Shown here piece after piece: positions 48,864 to 53,497 of a stretch of 54,381 nucleotides of DNA. How positions within the stretch are numbered: the first letter of the stretch is position 1; every line of letters begins with the position of its first letter. The stretch is from NCBI GenBank assembly GCA_017625725.1, contig JAGAKH010000073.1, positions 1 through 54,381 of the forward strand, read 5' to 3'. This DNA comes from Bacteroidales bacterium. Its GTDB lineage: Bacteria > Bacteroidota > Bacteroidia > Bacteroidales > UBA932. The position numbers and the translations under genes are program-made. Under the pieces are notes generated by a model. The model did no database searches. It was not told where the DNA came from and saw only the letters and a list, made by a program, of their open reading frames with translations.

Positions 48864-50654
48864 TTAGTCCCCCACATGTACCCAGTCGACCTGCATCCAT
48901 CCGCTGTCATTCTTTGGTGTATGTCGGTTACAGAATAGGCCGAATTTTGCTCCGATCCATTTGCCTGGCTTGGCAATGAAGGAGAATCCATCGGAAAGGT
49001 CTGTCCATTTCCTTCCGTCCAGGCTGTAGCTGAATGATGCCGTCATGTCCGGTACATTGCCCTTTCTCTCTCTTGGTCTTACCTGCATCCTGATGAAGAT
49101 ATCGGTTTCCATATAATCCAGAGGCTTTACAGGAGGGACAGTCTTAGACATATACTTATTTGAATATGGGGTTTCCAGAGCTTTGGATTCAAGTCTGTGT
49201 TCCGCCATGACCTTTTCAGCCGAACCTTTCAAGGCATTTTCACACACTACATACTGGAGTACCACACCGTCTTTGGTGTAGGTAAGTCTGATGGCAGCAT
49301 AGTCCTGTCCCATAAGGACGAAACCACAGGATTCACTCTTCTCCTTCAGTTGTGGATTTGGGATAAACTTCAGCTTTGCCTTGACTGTAAATTCGTCTGC
49401 AGGCGTTTTCTGCAATAAGAGATTCGGAGAGTCACTGAGGTTCTTCCATTCCTCCGACTGTTGAACTGAATAAAGTCTGAGGGCACCCAATCCGTTGGTC
49501 ATATCTTCCTTTGCTGCAGAATCGACATAATACCAGTAAGGGGATAGAACACCGTTCCATTGCCACTGAAGCCCCAGTTCTCTTTCTGTGAAGCTGTCGC
49601 TTGTAGCGGGCTGGAATGTTCCGGAAGACTTAAGGTCCGGTTTCCTGTATTTCATCACTGGTTCTCCCACTCCGTCAGCGTCGGAATCCATGCCTATTAC
49701 AGGCCAACCGTCTTCATTCCAACTCATCGGCTGCAGATGTACAACCCTTCCATAGGCGTCCTTGTCCTGGAAATGCATGAACCAATGCTCTCCCTTTCCC
49801 GTCTCTATCCATGCTCCCTGATGAGGTCCGTTTACCGGAGAATTACCTTGTGCCATGACAACCTTTTCCTCATAAGGCCCCCAGGGACTTTCTGACCTCA
49901 GCACTACCTGCCATCCTGTAGGAACGCCTCCAGCTGGAGAGAATATGTAATATTTCCCCTCTCTTTTGTAGAATTTGGTACCTTCTATGGTAGGCTGCGT
50001 CTCATGTCCGTCATACACAATACGGCTTGGTCCGGTCAGCCTGCATCCGTCTTCGGACATCGGTGCAACAAACAGCACGCTTTTCAATCCGGCCCGGCTG
50101 CCGGCACAACCGTGAGAGAGGTATGCCTTTCCATCCTCATCCCAAAGCGGACAAGGATCGATGTATCCCTTGGCTTTTACTACCCACACCGGATCAGACC
50201 ATTTCCCCTTGGGATCTGAGGTCTTTACCATGAAGATGCCCCTGTCCGGATCTCCGCAATAAATGTAGAATTCCCCGTTATGGAATCTGATGGCAGGAGC
50301 CCAGACTCCGTTTCCGTGCTGGGGAGTTGTCTGCCATAGGTCGTTTTCTGCTCCATCCATCCAGTTGGGTCCCGGATAGTCTGTCAGGGCAGCGCCGATG
50401 ATTTTCCAGTTGACAAGATCAGTTGAATGAAGGATCTGTAGGCCGGGAAAACATGCAAATGAAGAGGATGTCATATAGAAATCATCCCCCACGCGGCATA
50501 CATCCGGATCGGAGTAGTCGGCATTGATAACCGGGTTGATGTAGTGGGTACCTTTATCCGGGTTCCAGCTTTCAGAGGGTATCTGAGCCTGTACGGAACT
50601 TACTGCAGTTGCAAGAAGGATGGAAGAACAAGCAATTCTTACGGTGTGATTCAT
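48864..50654 (-). CDS. Secreted GH43 glycoside hydrolase (xylosidase/arabinosidase type)
   Basis: The product from ATG 50654 has 596 residues and a signal peptide (MNHTVRIACSSILLATAVSSVQAQ). The longer start at 50687 adds residues ahead of that signal. The five-bladed GH43 domain shows the catalytic base in NADYSDPDV, the pKa-modulating Asp in YIDPCPLWDEDGKAYL, and the acid Glu in TIEGTKFYKREGKYYI. A C-terminal concanavalin-like domain (from about residue 345, TERELGLQWQWNG onward) resembles that of GH43 beta-xylosidases. It likely trims arabinose or xylose side chains of plant polysaccharides. Exact specificity is unknown. Confidence 0.9.
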   Translation of the reverse strand: MNHTVRIACSSILLATAVSSVQAQIPSESWNPDKGTHYINPVINADYSDPDVCRVGDDFYMTSSSFACFPGLQILHSTDLVNWKIIGAALTDYPGPNWMDGAENDLWQTTPQHGNGVWAPAIRFHNGEFYIYCGDPDRGIFMVKTSDPKGKWSDPVWVVKAKGYIDPCPLWDEDGKAYLSHGCAGSRAGLKSVLFVAPMSEDGCRLTGPSRIVYDGHETQPTIEGTKFYKREGKYYIFSPAGGVPTGWQVVLRSESPWGPYEEKVVMAQGNSPVNGPHQGAWIETGKGEHWFMHFQDKDAYGRVVHLQPMSWNEDGWPVIGMDSDADGVGEPVMKYRKPDLKSSGTFQPATSDSFTERELGLQWQWNGVLSPYWYYVDSAAKEDMTNGLGALRLYSVQQSEEWKNLSDSPNLLLQKTPADEFTVKAKLKFIPNPQLKEKSESCGFVLMGQDYAAIRLTYTKDGVVLQYVVCENALKGSAEKVMAEHRLESKALETPYSNKYMSKTVPPVKPLDYMETDIFIRMQVRPRERKGNVPDMTASFSYSLDGRKWTDLSDGFSFIAKPGKWIGAKFGLFCNRHTPKNDSGWMQVDWVHVGD

Positions 50655-50738
50655 CTTATTGTAATCTAATTTCCGTAAAGTTAACAAATCCTCTTAAATA
50701 TGTGTAAAATTCTATATCTTCTATCTTTAATTCATTTT

Positions 50739-50753
50739 TGGCACGCACTTTGT
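50739..50753 (+). promoter_or_regulatory. Sigma-54-like promoter of RNA copy 1
   Basis: TGGCACGCACTTTGT has the -24 GG (50740-50741) and the -12 dinucleotide (GT at 50752-50753, consensus GC) separated by exactly 10 bases, as required for sigma-54. Expected start is about 50765. An alternative is a housekeeping promoter using TTTG (50749-50752) and TAGTTTAG (50771-50778). Confidence 0.5.
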
Positions 50754-50764
50754 AAAAGTATAGT

Positions 50765-50842
50765 CACGGTTAGTTTAGTTGTTAATAATAGGGTTATGGT
50801 TTCATCCGGCTGGTCGATCTGAAGGTCAGCCGGATGTTTTTA
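50765..50842 (+). ncRNA. Putative small RNA, copy 1 of a twin pair
   Basis: Bases 50767-50824 are identical to 51643-51700. The predicted RNA is about 77 nt: an unpaired, UA-rich 5' part of about 37 nt, then a 12-13 bp hairpin (50803-50815 with 50824-50836) and a T tract. Two stem pairs are G-U here but G-C or A-U in copy 2, so pairing is kept. It lies upstream of the SIMPL gene on the same strand, ahead of that gene's own -7-like box. No match to a known RNA family is recognised. An eight-codon frame (MVSSGWSI) at 50796-50822 also exists. Confidence 0.6.
50804..50842 (+). terminator. Terminator of RNA copy 1
   Basis: ATCCGGCTGGTC pairs with GGTCAGCCGGAT (two G-U pairs) around GATCTGAA and is followed by GTTTTTA. 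It would also block transcription into the SIMPL gene. Confidence 0.8.
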
Positions 50843-50843
50843 T

Positions 50844-50851
50844 TATCTTTG
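50844..50851 (+). promoter_or_regulatory. -7 promoter box of the SIMPL gene
   Basis: TATCTTTG, an exact TAnnTTTG match just after the RNA terminator and 49 bases before the ATG. No clear -33 element is seen. Confidence 0.45.
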
Positions 50852-50900
50852 GCTTTATTTTGGTAATAAATCTGAGGTAAGTGAATTTAATCTAAATATT

Positions 50901-51605
50901 ATGGATAAGGGTAAAGTATTCAGCGGGCTGGCTATAATGATCGGCCTTGTTGTCTTGGGCTTGATGATGCCTAAGGCGGTGGAGAAGTATCGTTCTTATG
51001 ACAGGGTAGTGAACGTCAAGGGCTTATGTGAAAAAGAAGTCATGGCGGATAAGGTCATATGGCCTTTGGTATATAAGGTCATGTCCAATGATATCCAGTC
51101 CATCTATGACCAGACTGATGCCAGCAATGGCCTGATTATGGATTTTCTCACGGATGGGGGAATCTCTGAAAAGGAAATAACGGTTTCTGTTCCGTCCATT
51201 TCAGATAAGCTTGCAAACGAATACGGAGACAATAACAGAGCCTTCCGTTATATAGCGAAGAATGTGATAACGGTATGTACTGATGATGTTGATGCTGTCT
51301 TGAGACTTATGTCAAAGCAGTCAGAACTCCTGAAGAAAGGAATTGTTACCTCAGAAAACAGTTGGGAGAATCCGGTGGAATTCAAATATGAAGGCCTTAA
51401 TGACATAAAGCCTCAGATGATAGAGGAAGCGACGAAGAACGCCCGTGAAGCGGCAGAAAAATTTGCAAAGGATTCCGACAGCAGTCTGGGTAAGATCAAG
51501 AATGCAAACCAGGGGACATTCACGATAGAGAACAGGGACAGCAACACCCCTTATATAAAAAGAATACGTGTCGTGACATCTGTTACCTATTATCTGAACA
51601 ACTGA
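50901..51605 (+). CDS. SIMPL-domain (DUF541) protein, membrane-anchored
   Basis: The 234-residue protein has one N-terminal hydrophobic helix (about residues 5-24) and then the SIMPL/DUF541 domain: VVNVKGLCEKEVMADKVIWPLVYKV, TDGGISEKEITVSVPSISDK, and a C-terminal segment with AREAAEKFAKDSDSSLGKI. The family is periplasmic and its function is unclear; BP26 of Brucella is a relative that forms channels. It is flanked on both sides by the twin RNA copies and lies between two leftward GH43 genes. Confidence 0.87.
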   Translation: MDKGKVFSGLAIMIGLVVLGLMMPKAVEKYRSYDRVVNVKGLCEKEVMADKVIWPLVYKVMSNDIQSIYDQTDASNGLIMDFLTDGGISEKEITVSVPSISDKLANEYGDNNRAFRYIAKNVITVCTDDVDAVLRLMSKQSELLKKGIVTSENSWENPVEFKYEGLNDIKPQMIEEATKNAREAAEKFAKDSDSSLGKIKNANQGTFTIENRDSNTPYIKRIRVVTSVTYYLNN

Positions 51606-51613
51606 TATGATTC

Positions 51614-51628
51614 TGGCATAGCCTTTGC
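51614..51628 (+). promoter_or_regulatory. Sigma-54-like promoter of RNA copy 2
   Basis: TGGCATAGCCTTTGC has GG at 51615-51616 and GC at 51627-51628 with 10 bases between, a full -24/-12 arrangement. It begins 9 bases past the SIMPL stop. Expected start is about 51640, just before the sequence shared with copy 1. Confidence 0.6.
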
Positions 51629-51639
51629 GATATGCTAAG

Positions 51640-51718
51640 GTGCGGTTAGTTTAGTTGTTAATAATAGGGTTATGGTTTCATCCGGCTGGTCGATCTGAAG
51701 ACCAGCCGGATTCTTTTA
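51640..51718 (+). ncRNA. Putative small RNA, copy 2 of a twin pair
   Basis: The same 58-base body as copy 1 (51643-51700), ending in a perfect 12-bp stem (51680-51691 with 51700-51711) and TCTTTTATT. About 77 nt. The 3' end runs into the last codons of the convergent GH43 gene at 51716. Outside the body, only the promoter core and the stem are alike between the two copies, which suggests selection on these parts. Confidence 0.62.
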
Positions 51719-51720
51719 TT
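51680..51720 (+). terminator. Terminator of RNA copy 2
   Basis: ATCCGGCTGGTC and GACCAGCCGGAT form a perfect 12-bp stem around GATCTGAA, followed by TCTTTTATT. The minus strand lacks a T tract, so it acts mainly rightward. Confidence 0.85.
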
Positions 51721-53497
51721 GCACAGGTATCGTTTCGCTTACAGGAGAAATACCGTTGATGTTGAATGCTTCTACCTGAACATAATATTCCTGGCCGGCG
51801 CAGAGACATCTCAGGTCGAGTTCTGTGGCATCATAAAGAAGCCATGAATTATAAAGCTTGTCCGGTGCTATTCCCCATCTTACATTATATCCCTGACTTC
51901 CGGCGGATGCCTTCCAGCTCAGATGCATGTTCTTGCCGTCAGCAGATCTTTGGGCCGAAAGCCCCTCAACGGCGTCAGGAGCTTCTCCATAGCCTTTTCC
52001 AAATACTCTTATATCCGAAATTGCAAGATATGGAGCCGAAACCTTGATGTTTCTATATCTTATATATCTTACGCTTTGAGGCTTTTCAAGCTGGATATAT
52101 GCATTTGGAGCATCTTTTTCCGATTTGCTTCTGTCTTCCAGAATCGTCCAGTCTTTTCCGTCGAGGGAGCCTTCCAATACGTATTTCTGGCAGAGACCCT
52201 CAGGTCTGCCGTAAAGCATGGTCTCATGATCAAAATAATTGACCTGAATGGCATATACGTCTGCAGTTTCCTCAAGATCTATGCAGATCCACTGTGAGTC
52301 ATCATTGCTTTCTGCGAGCCAGTAGGTCTTGCAGTTTTCATCCGTAAGGTTTCCCGGTTTGAAATCAGGGGATGTTTCCGGCCTGTTTTCCTCTGTAAAT
52401 CCTTCTGCCTTCTTGGCCGAGCCCTCCGCAAATGAAGATGCAGTGACCGGCTTTCCGTATGAAAGCAGCATCCATCCGGTAAAGGCCCCTTTCTTGCCCT
52501 TCTGTGAAGGAGCGAAGTGCGGGTAGTCTGCGTACTCGTTGTCGCAATACATTATTCCGTCTTTATCGAAGAAGGTCGGAAGGAGGCATATCCTTCTTTC
52601 CCAGTTCACGATTGCTGAAAGAGACATCGTCGCGAAATGCCAATAGTTTCCGTCAGTGTCAAGCACTGTACTTCCGTGTCCGGCTCCGTTCATGAATCCG
52701 CCCGGCTTGTATGAAACAGGATTATGAGGCTGGTATGTGTACGGACCCATAGGGCTGTCCGCGGTGTATACGCCGTCTCCGTAAACGTTGAATTCGGTTC
52801 CGGGTGCGGCATACTGCATATAATACTTGCCGTTATGCTTTGTCATCCATGTTCCTTCTATATATGCCTTTATGTTTCTGTCCGAGTGGTTCTCTCCGAA
52901 ACGTTCCCAACCATGGGCAGTGCTGTCTGTGTTGAAAAGTTCGAATGTCTCTCCCTCGATAAGGAAACGGTCTCTCATGTTCAGTTTCTTTCCCCTGACA
53001 GGGTAGAAATTTGATGAACCCCAGAACATATATGCCTGCCCGTCATCATCAATGAAAAGATCCGGGTCCTGAAGGTCATGCAGAATTGCCGGCTCTGCCT
53101 TCCAGAGTCCGGCTTTCGGATTGTCGGAGTACATGATGCTCATCGAGCCGGATGGATCACCGGTAACGTAAAGGAGGGAATCCTTGTAATTATGGGCTGC
53201 GGGTGCATTGCATCCTTGAGGATACCATGTGCTTTTAGGTTCGATGAAGTTCCAGTTGACAAGGTCTGTGGAGTGCCAGTATCCAAGGGATCTTGTCACG
53301 AACATATAATATTCTCCGCGGAATTCCACCACAGCCGGATCGGCTCCGGAACGGTAGGACAGATTCCTGTCAGAGTTGTATATCATGTAGGTGTAGTCTA
53401 TGTCAAGGGGATTGCAATATGTTGTCTTGATGTCCTCTGTGCTGTTGCAAGAAATGAACAGTGTCAGTGCGGCAGTAAGGAATAAGAGTCTTTTCAT
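51716..53497 (-). CDS. GH43-like glycosidase lipoprotein with F5/8-type carbohydrate-binding and Fn3 domains
   Basis: The 593-residue protein has a lipobox LFISC (C16). The GH43 fold shows SGADPAVVEFRGEYYMF (base Asp), LQDPDLFIDDDGQAYMFWG (second Asp) and YIEGTWMTKHNGKYYM (acid Glu). A discoidin-like domain follows (about residues 355-500, CKTYWLAESNDDSQWICIDLEE and VRYIRYRNIKVS), then a fibronectin-type-III-like C-terminus (VEGLSAQRSADGKNMHLSWKAS). It is probably surface-anchored and acts on plant or host glycans. It starts 18 bases after the methyltransferase gene. Its ribosome-binding region is complementary to the twin RNAs. Confidence 0.87.
   Translation of the reverse strand: MKRLLFLTAALTLFISCNSTEDIKTTYCNPLDIDYTYMIYNSDRNLSYRSGADPAVVEFRGEYYMFVTRSLGYWHSTDLVNWNFIEPKSTWYPQGCNAPAAHNYKDSLLYVTGDPSGSMSIMYSDNPKAGLWKAEPAILHDLQDPDLFIDDDGQAYMFWGSSNFYPVRGKKLNMRDRFLIEGETFELFNTDSTAHGWERFGENHSDRNIKAYIEGTWMTKHNGKYYMQYAAPGTEFNVYGDGVYTADSPMGPYTYQPHNPVSYKPGGFMNGAGHGSTVLDTDGNYWHFATMSLSAIVNWERRICLLPTFFDKDGIMYCDNEYADYPHFAPSQKGKKGAFTGWMLLSYGKPVTASSFAEGSAKKAEGFTEENRPETSPDFKPGNLTDENCKTYWLAESNDDSQWICIDLEETADVYAIQVNYFDHETMLYGRPEGLCQKYVLEGSLDGKDWTILEDRSKSEKDAPNAYIQLEKPQSVRYIRYRNIKVSAPYLAISDIRVFGKGYGEAPDAVEGLSAQRSADGKNMHLSWKASAGSQGYNVRWGIAPDKLYNSWLLYDATELDLRCLCAGQEYYVQVEAFNINGISPVSETIPVQ

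Follow-up and report, generated by a model that had tools for sequence, protein, structure and literature searches.

Candidate small-RNA genes with sigma-54 type promoters form a patchily distributed family in Cryptobacteroides-type Bacteroidales

Paralogous small RNAs (sRNAs) with sigma-54 promoters, which follow a standard -24/-12 consensus, include Qrr1-5 of Vibrio and GlmY/GlmZ of enterobacteria, both of which need Hfq or RapZ. Here, we describe a pair of candidate sRNA genes on a 54,381-nt contig of a Bacteroidales bacterium (JAGAKH010000073.1, assembly GCA_017625725.1; the window, of genome G000), to which these systems of another phylum are closer than the original prediction, which had drawn the comparison from the DNA letters of the window alone, could know, since they are also sigma-54 dependent. 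With a probability of about 0.7, the two loci represent a family of ~75-80 nt trans-acting sRNAs that would be transcribed by sigma-54 RNA polymerase and pair through a conserved body with the start regions of messenger RNAs (mRNAs). Within the order itself, the available part of PMC11697453 describes FopS (RF04319, BTncRNA_FopS), which represses SusC-like transporters at the start region, and reports for GibS (RF04182), a Bacteroides sRNA whose 5′ seed is related to FopS, a promoter of neither the sigma-54 nor the canonical type.

The window copies are direct repeats at 50767-50844 and 51643-51720, sharing 95% identity over 78 nt with the initial 58 nt identical, and both end in a hairpin followed by a T-rich tail. 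The hairpin arms of copy 2 are ATCCGGCTGGTC/GACCAGCCGGAT, and in copy 1 GGTC replaces the GACC of copy 2 with pairing kept via G-U. The minimum free energies (MFE) are -22.5 and -26.2 kcal/mol (z -3.37 and -3.68), and 0/200 shuffles were as stable as either copy. The 50 nt upstream are dissimilar, with an identity of 0.38 between the copies. Across the whole window, Rfam 15 gave no match at gathering score, and at E<=10 only chance-level matches around the copies, the best being RT-12 with 19.5 bits against a cut-off of 44.2; RF04319 matched the window neither at E<=10 nor at gathering, GibS had no match in it, and neither Qrr nor GlmY/GlmZ was among its Rfam matches. The original prediction was thus right about the twins, the two hairpin variants that both still pair with the left arm, the unlike flanks, the lack of a known RNA family and the layout of promoter, unpaired body and terminator.

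The most informative part of this layout is the promoter type, which the original prediction had left unnamed. Across 109 distinct members from Cryptobacteroides-type genomes (uncultured gut Bacteroidales), TGGCAY-N5-TTGC lies 13-16 nt 5′ of the body in 109/109, in 87 without mismatch and in 22 with one, and GGCA is invariant and TTG nearly invariant at the -24/-12 spacing. The promoter was part of neither the search pattern nor the covariance model R1, which consists of body and hairpin and was built from 31 sequences, three of them found through the promoter. In the wider set before removal of repeats and edges (122 matches), 98 had no mismatch, 21 one and one two, while the two matches without promoter are an unrelated weak match outside the genus (L044) and a match truncated by the end of its locus (L100). 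All 17 weak or variant R1 matches that were fetched likewise carry the promoter (11 with no and six with one mismatch), two of them sitting on contigs already seen. On 808 kb of contigs that had been chosen for carrying the sRNA (L046-L149), 88 of 89 perfect promoter sites precede an sRNA, other perfect sites occurring about once per 800 kb.

Searching for the promoter alone (TTGGCAYN4TTTGCW) in 151 genomes of the genus gave 37 sites in 31 genomes against 15 for the reversed pattern. Read by eye, 29/37 were sRNA-linked, comprising 21 with the body of the window family (body I) or variants, seven with a second body (type II) and one with another sRNA-like sequence (L235), and eight were neither. 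Since these eight are fewer than the 15 control sites, the excess lies before sRNAs at this stringency, a strict pattern that would miss weaker sigma-54 promoters of other genes. At L235:452-630 (G076), the site leads into an sRNA-like sequence that is longer, has another body (GGTTATTAGTTTTAGTGTTATT...) and includes a hairpin. One of the eight remaining sites precedes grpE (L223:1500-2094; PF01025), the only recognised protein gene among the sites read, and a further sigma-54 type site, in another family, precedes what looks by eye like a dnaK-like start (L155:1500). These two sites hint at a heat-shock link, and grpE of B. thetaiotaomicron is described as sigma-54 dependent in the available part of PMC12316311. 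The sigma factor gene rpoN (PF04552) was found in G000 and in 56/61 genomes, and sigma-54 activator domains (PF00158) in 61/61, with five matches in G000, including three strong ones among those listed; weak matches to PF00158 say little, because all 14 control genomes match too.

Aligned on the body, the members display a weakly conserved upstream region, the promoter, 13-16 nt and GGTTAGTTTAGTTG(T/A)TAATAATAGGGTTA, followed by a sharp drop in conservation. The body, which starts CGGUUAGUUUAGUUGUUAAUAAUAGGGUUA..., is conserved across about 30 nt, an invariance that is overstated because the search pattern demanded most of it, and variants found by other routes include GGTTAGTTTTAGTTGGTTTAGTTAATAATAGG, GGTTAGTTTTAGTTAATAATAGGG and GGTTGTTTAGTTAGTTAATAATAAGG. 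Its MFE over the 109 members is -0.3 kcal/mol compared to -1.4 for shuffled sequences, as expected of an unpaired stretch. The hairpin drifts in sequence, with a mean identity of 0.31 over all pairs of 36-nt tails, yet stems of at least 8 bp form in 108/109 members despite 102 distinct left arms, and 99/109 have at least three T in the eight bases after the stem. In a model-fitted alignment of 103 matches, 92% of cells were paired and 11/11 pairs showed changes in both partners, and in an unfitted alignment of 31 pairing reached 58.7% versus 43.6% when shuffled. Comparison of the members shows a family of candidate RNA genes that are independent, end in a terminator and carry a sigma-54 type promoter, with strong selection on both the body and the pairing of the hairpin. 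A small protein was rejected as the product, as an ATG falls within the first 45 nt of 40/109 members only and the longest frames differ in length from member to member.

In terms of distribution, searching 61 genomes at the DNA level recovered ten clear copies, spread over seven further genomes of the same genus, and a body-only pattern scan of a genome collection gave 104 contig stretches, far above chance and from one bacterial group. Their records are Bacteroidales or Bacteroidia metagenome-assembled genomes, several labelled Candidatus Cryptobacteroides and one Paraprevotella (L075), and these relatives make the window genome a probable Cryptobacteroides. The covariance-model check suggested in the original prediction, carried out with R1, matched 51/151 genomes of the genus at E<=0.001 (23/62 good ones), and an order-wide search found only weak matches outside the genus. 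The family is thus frequent but patchy in the genus. Among 20 weak order-wide matches that were read, four (L242, L250, L251 and L257) have a sigma-54 element with at most one mismatch on the same strand, and several others resemble, by eye, the antisense of mRNA leaders. The four are sRNA-like sequences from other families of the order, among which L250 and L257 seem to stand between bodies I and II.

The window sRNAs resemble FopS, as the latter is described in the available part of PMC11697453, in being multi-copy, in belonging to Bacteroidales and in combining an unpaired conserved 5′ part with a Rho-independent terminator, and the class of FopS targets (SusC-like) is the class suggested for the window family. 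Yet, the window body is unlike the FopS R1′ consensus (719/1000 shuffles score as high), and the hairpin of FopS is conserved and its promoter is of the sigma-ABfr type, whereas in the window family the hairpin sequence drifts and the promoter is of the sigma-54 type. All 30 FopS loci read carry the sigma-ABfr -7 element within one mismatch, and one of the 30 has a sigma-54-like site with two mismatches. Across the order, RF04319 matched 108/393 genomes at E<=0.01, 75 of them above the cut-off, and G000 has one weak match (E 0.0027). Many FopS loci (L479-L508) show a palindrome like ATGTTGTACAACAT or TATGTT..AACATA directly 5′ of the -7 element, possibly a candidate site for a FopS activator.

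The type II loci (L211-L214, L218, L224 and L236) and the bridge RNAs (L250 and L257) have the promoter, spacing and layout of the window copies. However, the type II body, CCGAATAGTTTTTTCATAGGTTAAATTTTAGGTTAGAATTGCAA and variants, and that of L250 resemble FopS R1′ (0/1000 shuffles as good), unlike body I, and RF04319 scores reach 27.8 bits for type II and 38.1 bits for L250, neither passing the cut-off of 56. As type II is FopS-like, body I is not and the promoter is common to both, one genus therefore runs both under the same promoter. One genome, G124, carries both body types, and four type II loci (L211, L212, L213 and L224) lie beside a similar small lipoprotein-like gene.

Candidate mRNA targets were sought as perfect 9-, 10- and 11-nt complements to body I between -45 and +10 of open reading frame starts, with 400 dinucleotide shuffles of the body as background (300 in a first run). 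In G032 (262 starts), the counts were 10, 7 and 6 against 3.3, 0.9 and 0.3 in shuffles. Among carriers added later, G000 with the window (341 starts) had 8, 4 and 1 against 5.3, 1.6 and 0.5, G518 (224 starts) had 5, 3 and 1 against 2.6, 0.8 and 0.2, and G091 (84 starts) had 0, 0 and 0. The type II genomes G129 and G023 (305 starts) gave 2, 1 and 0 against 2.7, 0.8 and 0.2, and G016, a later addition with no R1 match (305 starts), gave 5, 1 and 0 against 3.5, 1.0 and 0.3. Pooled, the ten-mers numbered 14 in carriers against 3.4 in shuffles (0/400 as high) and two in non-carriers against 1.8, and a coding control (+25..+80) contained no 10-nt complements. Leaving out the first genome, the carriers had seven ten-mers against 2.3 (15/1000 shuffles), so the start-region signal, strong in that first genome, is replicated only modestly in the others. 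Within L046-L149, start regions held nine ten-mers against 1.5 (mononucleotide shuffles, the largest of 30 being 6), four of the nine sites apparently belonging to orthologues of a single gene. Start regions complementary to body II occur in carriers as well as in non-carriers, perhaps as UUUUUUCAU is antisense to ATGAAAAA, which makes the crossover with this body uninformative.

Five of the 14 carrier ten-mer sites belong to SusC-like genes (L279, L331, L336, L346 and L351), and, named by eye, three to lipoprotein-like genes (L267, L275 and L278) and one to a sugar-permease-like gene (L343); another, L269, is at a doubtful inner start. In carriers, 5/18 SusC genes have a site compared to 9/893 other genes, a contrast whose Fisher p of 3e-6 is optimistic because the same data had first drawn attention to the class. 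Matches in an independent SusC set include L399, with a 14-nt complement. SusC-like transporters are the most likely targets and, at the same time, the least secure step, with odds slightly under even.

From the conservation pattern and the complementarity, we infer transcription, RpoN dependence, an activator with its signal, repression and a target class. Sigma-54 RNA polymerase would transcribe an sRNA of about 75-80 nt, which, being sigma-54 transcribed, would be made only when some enhancer-binding activator is on. This sRNA would comprise the near-invariant unpaired 5′ body and a terminator hairpin of freely drifting sequence, and the body would pair with mRNA leaders just 5′ of start codons (e.g., TTATTAACAACTAAACT...ATG) and block translation, the likeliest targets being SusC-like TonB-dependent transporters and other exported proteins. 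Alternatively, the body could mainly be a binding site for a protein, for example an RRM protein like RbpB, which the sRNA would titrate or carry, with mRNA pairing being secondary. The conserved ~30 nt exceed the usual seed, and RbpB binds single-stranded parts of FopS RNAs according to the available part of PMC11697453; however, the ten-mer excess in start regions is specific to carriers, and a simple, partial and crude motif scan found 0 RRM-like proteins in the stretches scanned, making this alternative unlikely.

Less probable still is a housekeeping sigma-ABfr promoter (TTTG ... TAnnTTTG) like that of FopS, with the likeness to sigma-54 being secondary. Although TAnnTTTG occurs within 45 nt upstream in 68/109 members with at most one mismatch, and exactly in 15, this -7 element is loose, so the contrast with the FopS promoter rests on the sigma-54 side, where the invariant GGCA and its spacing, the rarity of perfect sites elsewhere and the sRNAs returned by the promoter-only search all argue against it. 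Least probable by a small step is a cis-acting terminator or leader, or a dispersed repeat, devoid of any trans function. While twins exist and the hairpins are intergenic, often past a stop codon, and could terminate transcription of their neighbours, the body is conserved without a constant downstream gene: members with context share no consistent downstream gene for cis control, and 61 of the 92 whose downstream neighbour lies within 400 nt are convergent to it, which makes a leader unlikely. Every member also has its own promoter, and a bare terminator needs no conserved body.

Several results weigh against a sigma-54-transcribed sRNA family that pairs with mRNA start regions. Without the first genome, nine-mers (13 against 7.9; 130/1000 shuffles) and eleven-mers (2 against 0.7; 164/1000) exceed the background less clearly, and a test of body I by duplex energies revealed no significant excess. 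The independent SusC set had 3/47 matches in carriers and 0/47 in non-carriers, one of the three (L395) lying inside the reading frame. Regarding the promoter, the strict form has no site in G000, because both window promoters deviate from it by one base, and a looser pattern is common in that genome (100 sites against 45 for the control). No shared activator-site motif was found in 36 non-homologous upstream stretches. Finally, R1 has no match in 100/151 genomes of the genus.

It could be speculated, though it is rather doubtful, that sigma-54 is chiefly a small-RNA sigma factor in this genus, its clear promoters serving a fast-diversifying set of sRNAs directed against the start regions of mRNAs (bodies I and II and their intermediates), so that one signal would shut down the synthesis of glycan transporters and other exported proteins. 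FopS does likewise elsewhere in the order under the housekeeping sigma factor, so that, if this holds, a single sRNA strategy would have passed from the control of one sigma factor to that of another. The data suggest a recurrence, under a different sigma factor, of the control of SusC-type transporters by sRNAs that is known from FopS. Paralogous sigma-54 sRNAs in Proteobacteria and SusC-directed sRNAs in Bacteroides are already known separately, and neither the window family nor the sigma-54/SusC combination was found in Rfam or the literature searched. The role of sigma-54 in Bacteroidota is little explored. In a 2025 survey of sigma-54 regulons, chaperones and ABC transporters are named for Bacteroidota, and the terms sRNA, small RNA and noncoding do not occur in the available part of its main text (PMC12316311); a term search in the available part of PMC12596196 was likewise without occurrence. 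Among the matches listed in open-licence PubMed Central, there were no sigma-54-driven sRNAs in Bacteroidota and no sRNAs in Cryptobacteroides. Since the promoter leads to the RNA and the RNA in turn to predicted targets, the question of what sigma-54 does becomes directly testable for an uncultured gut group.

Table 1. Features of the sRNA pair and the gene between the copies, in positions of the window.
Feature	Position	Strand	Basis
Sigma-54 type -24/-12 promoter, copy 1	50739..50753	+	TGGCAC-GCACT-TTGT, one base off TGGCAY-N5-TTGC
Candidate sRNA, copy 1	50765..50842	+	Repeat and fold; putative start 12 nt past the -12 base; R1 match 50767-50846, 76.8 bits
Conserved unpaired body, copy 1 (proposed seed)	50767..50800	+	Conservation and body MFE across 109 members
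Terminator hairpin, copy 1, T tract after	50803..50836	+	Fold; stems across members
SIMPL-domain gene between the copies, thought to be outside the system	50901..51605	+	PF04402; adjoins 6/113 members
Sigma-54 type promoter, copy 2	51614..51628	+	TGGCAT-AGCCT-TTGC, 0 mismatches; 8 nt past the SIMPL stop codon
Candidate sRNA, copy 2	51640..51718	+	Repeat and fold; putative start 12 nt past the -12 base; R1 match 51643-51722, 78.1 bits
Conserved unpaired body, copy 2	51643..51676	+	Fold; conservation across members
Terminator hairpin, copy 2, T-rich tail after	51680..51711	+	Inverted repeat; fold; stems across members

The gene between the copies matches SIMPL with an E of 6e-16. Of the proposal of a new twin sRNA pair flanking this gene, the new sRNA family is supported, whereas a twin system around SIMPL is not: the gene adjoins few members and is not thought to be part of the sRNA system, and twins, which recur on several contigs, are a minority. 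The outer neighbours of the pair, at 48864-50687 (-) and 51716-53497 (-), are both glycoside hydrolase family 43 genes (PF04616), placing the pair in a region of carbohydrate use. More generally, the sRNA promoter often starts right past the stop codon of the upstream gene, and for 45/113 members with context the gene immediately before is a DUF4783 gene (PF16022), while the downstream side commonly holds a convergent der and then rlmH. With regard to the idea of an ancestral der site, reading 400 nt on the downstream side of der in G000 revealed no sRNA. Among the twins compared, some have a common hairpin and unlike upstream DNA, including the window pair (0.89) and L031 (0.97), while the L068 twins share the upstream DNA and not the hairpin. 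L115:3367-3500 holds a head-to-tail pair of members, 106 nt apart, in which both have a promoter of their own and the hairpins are unlike.
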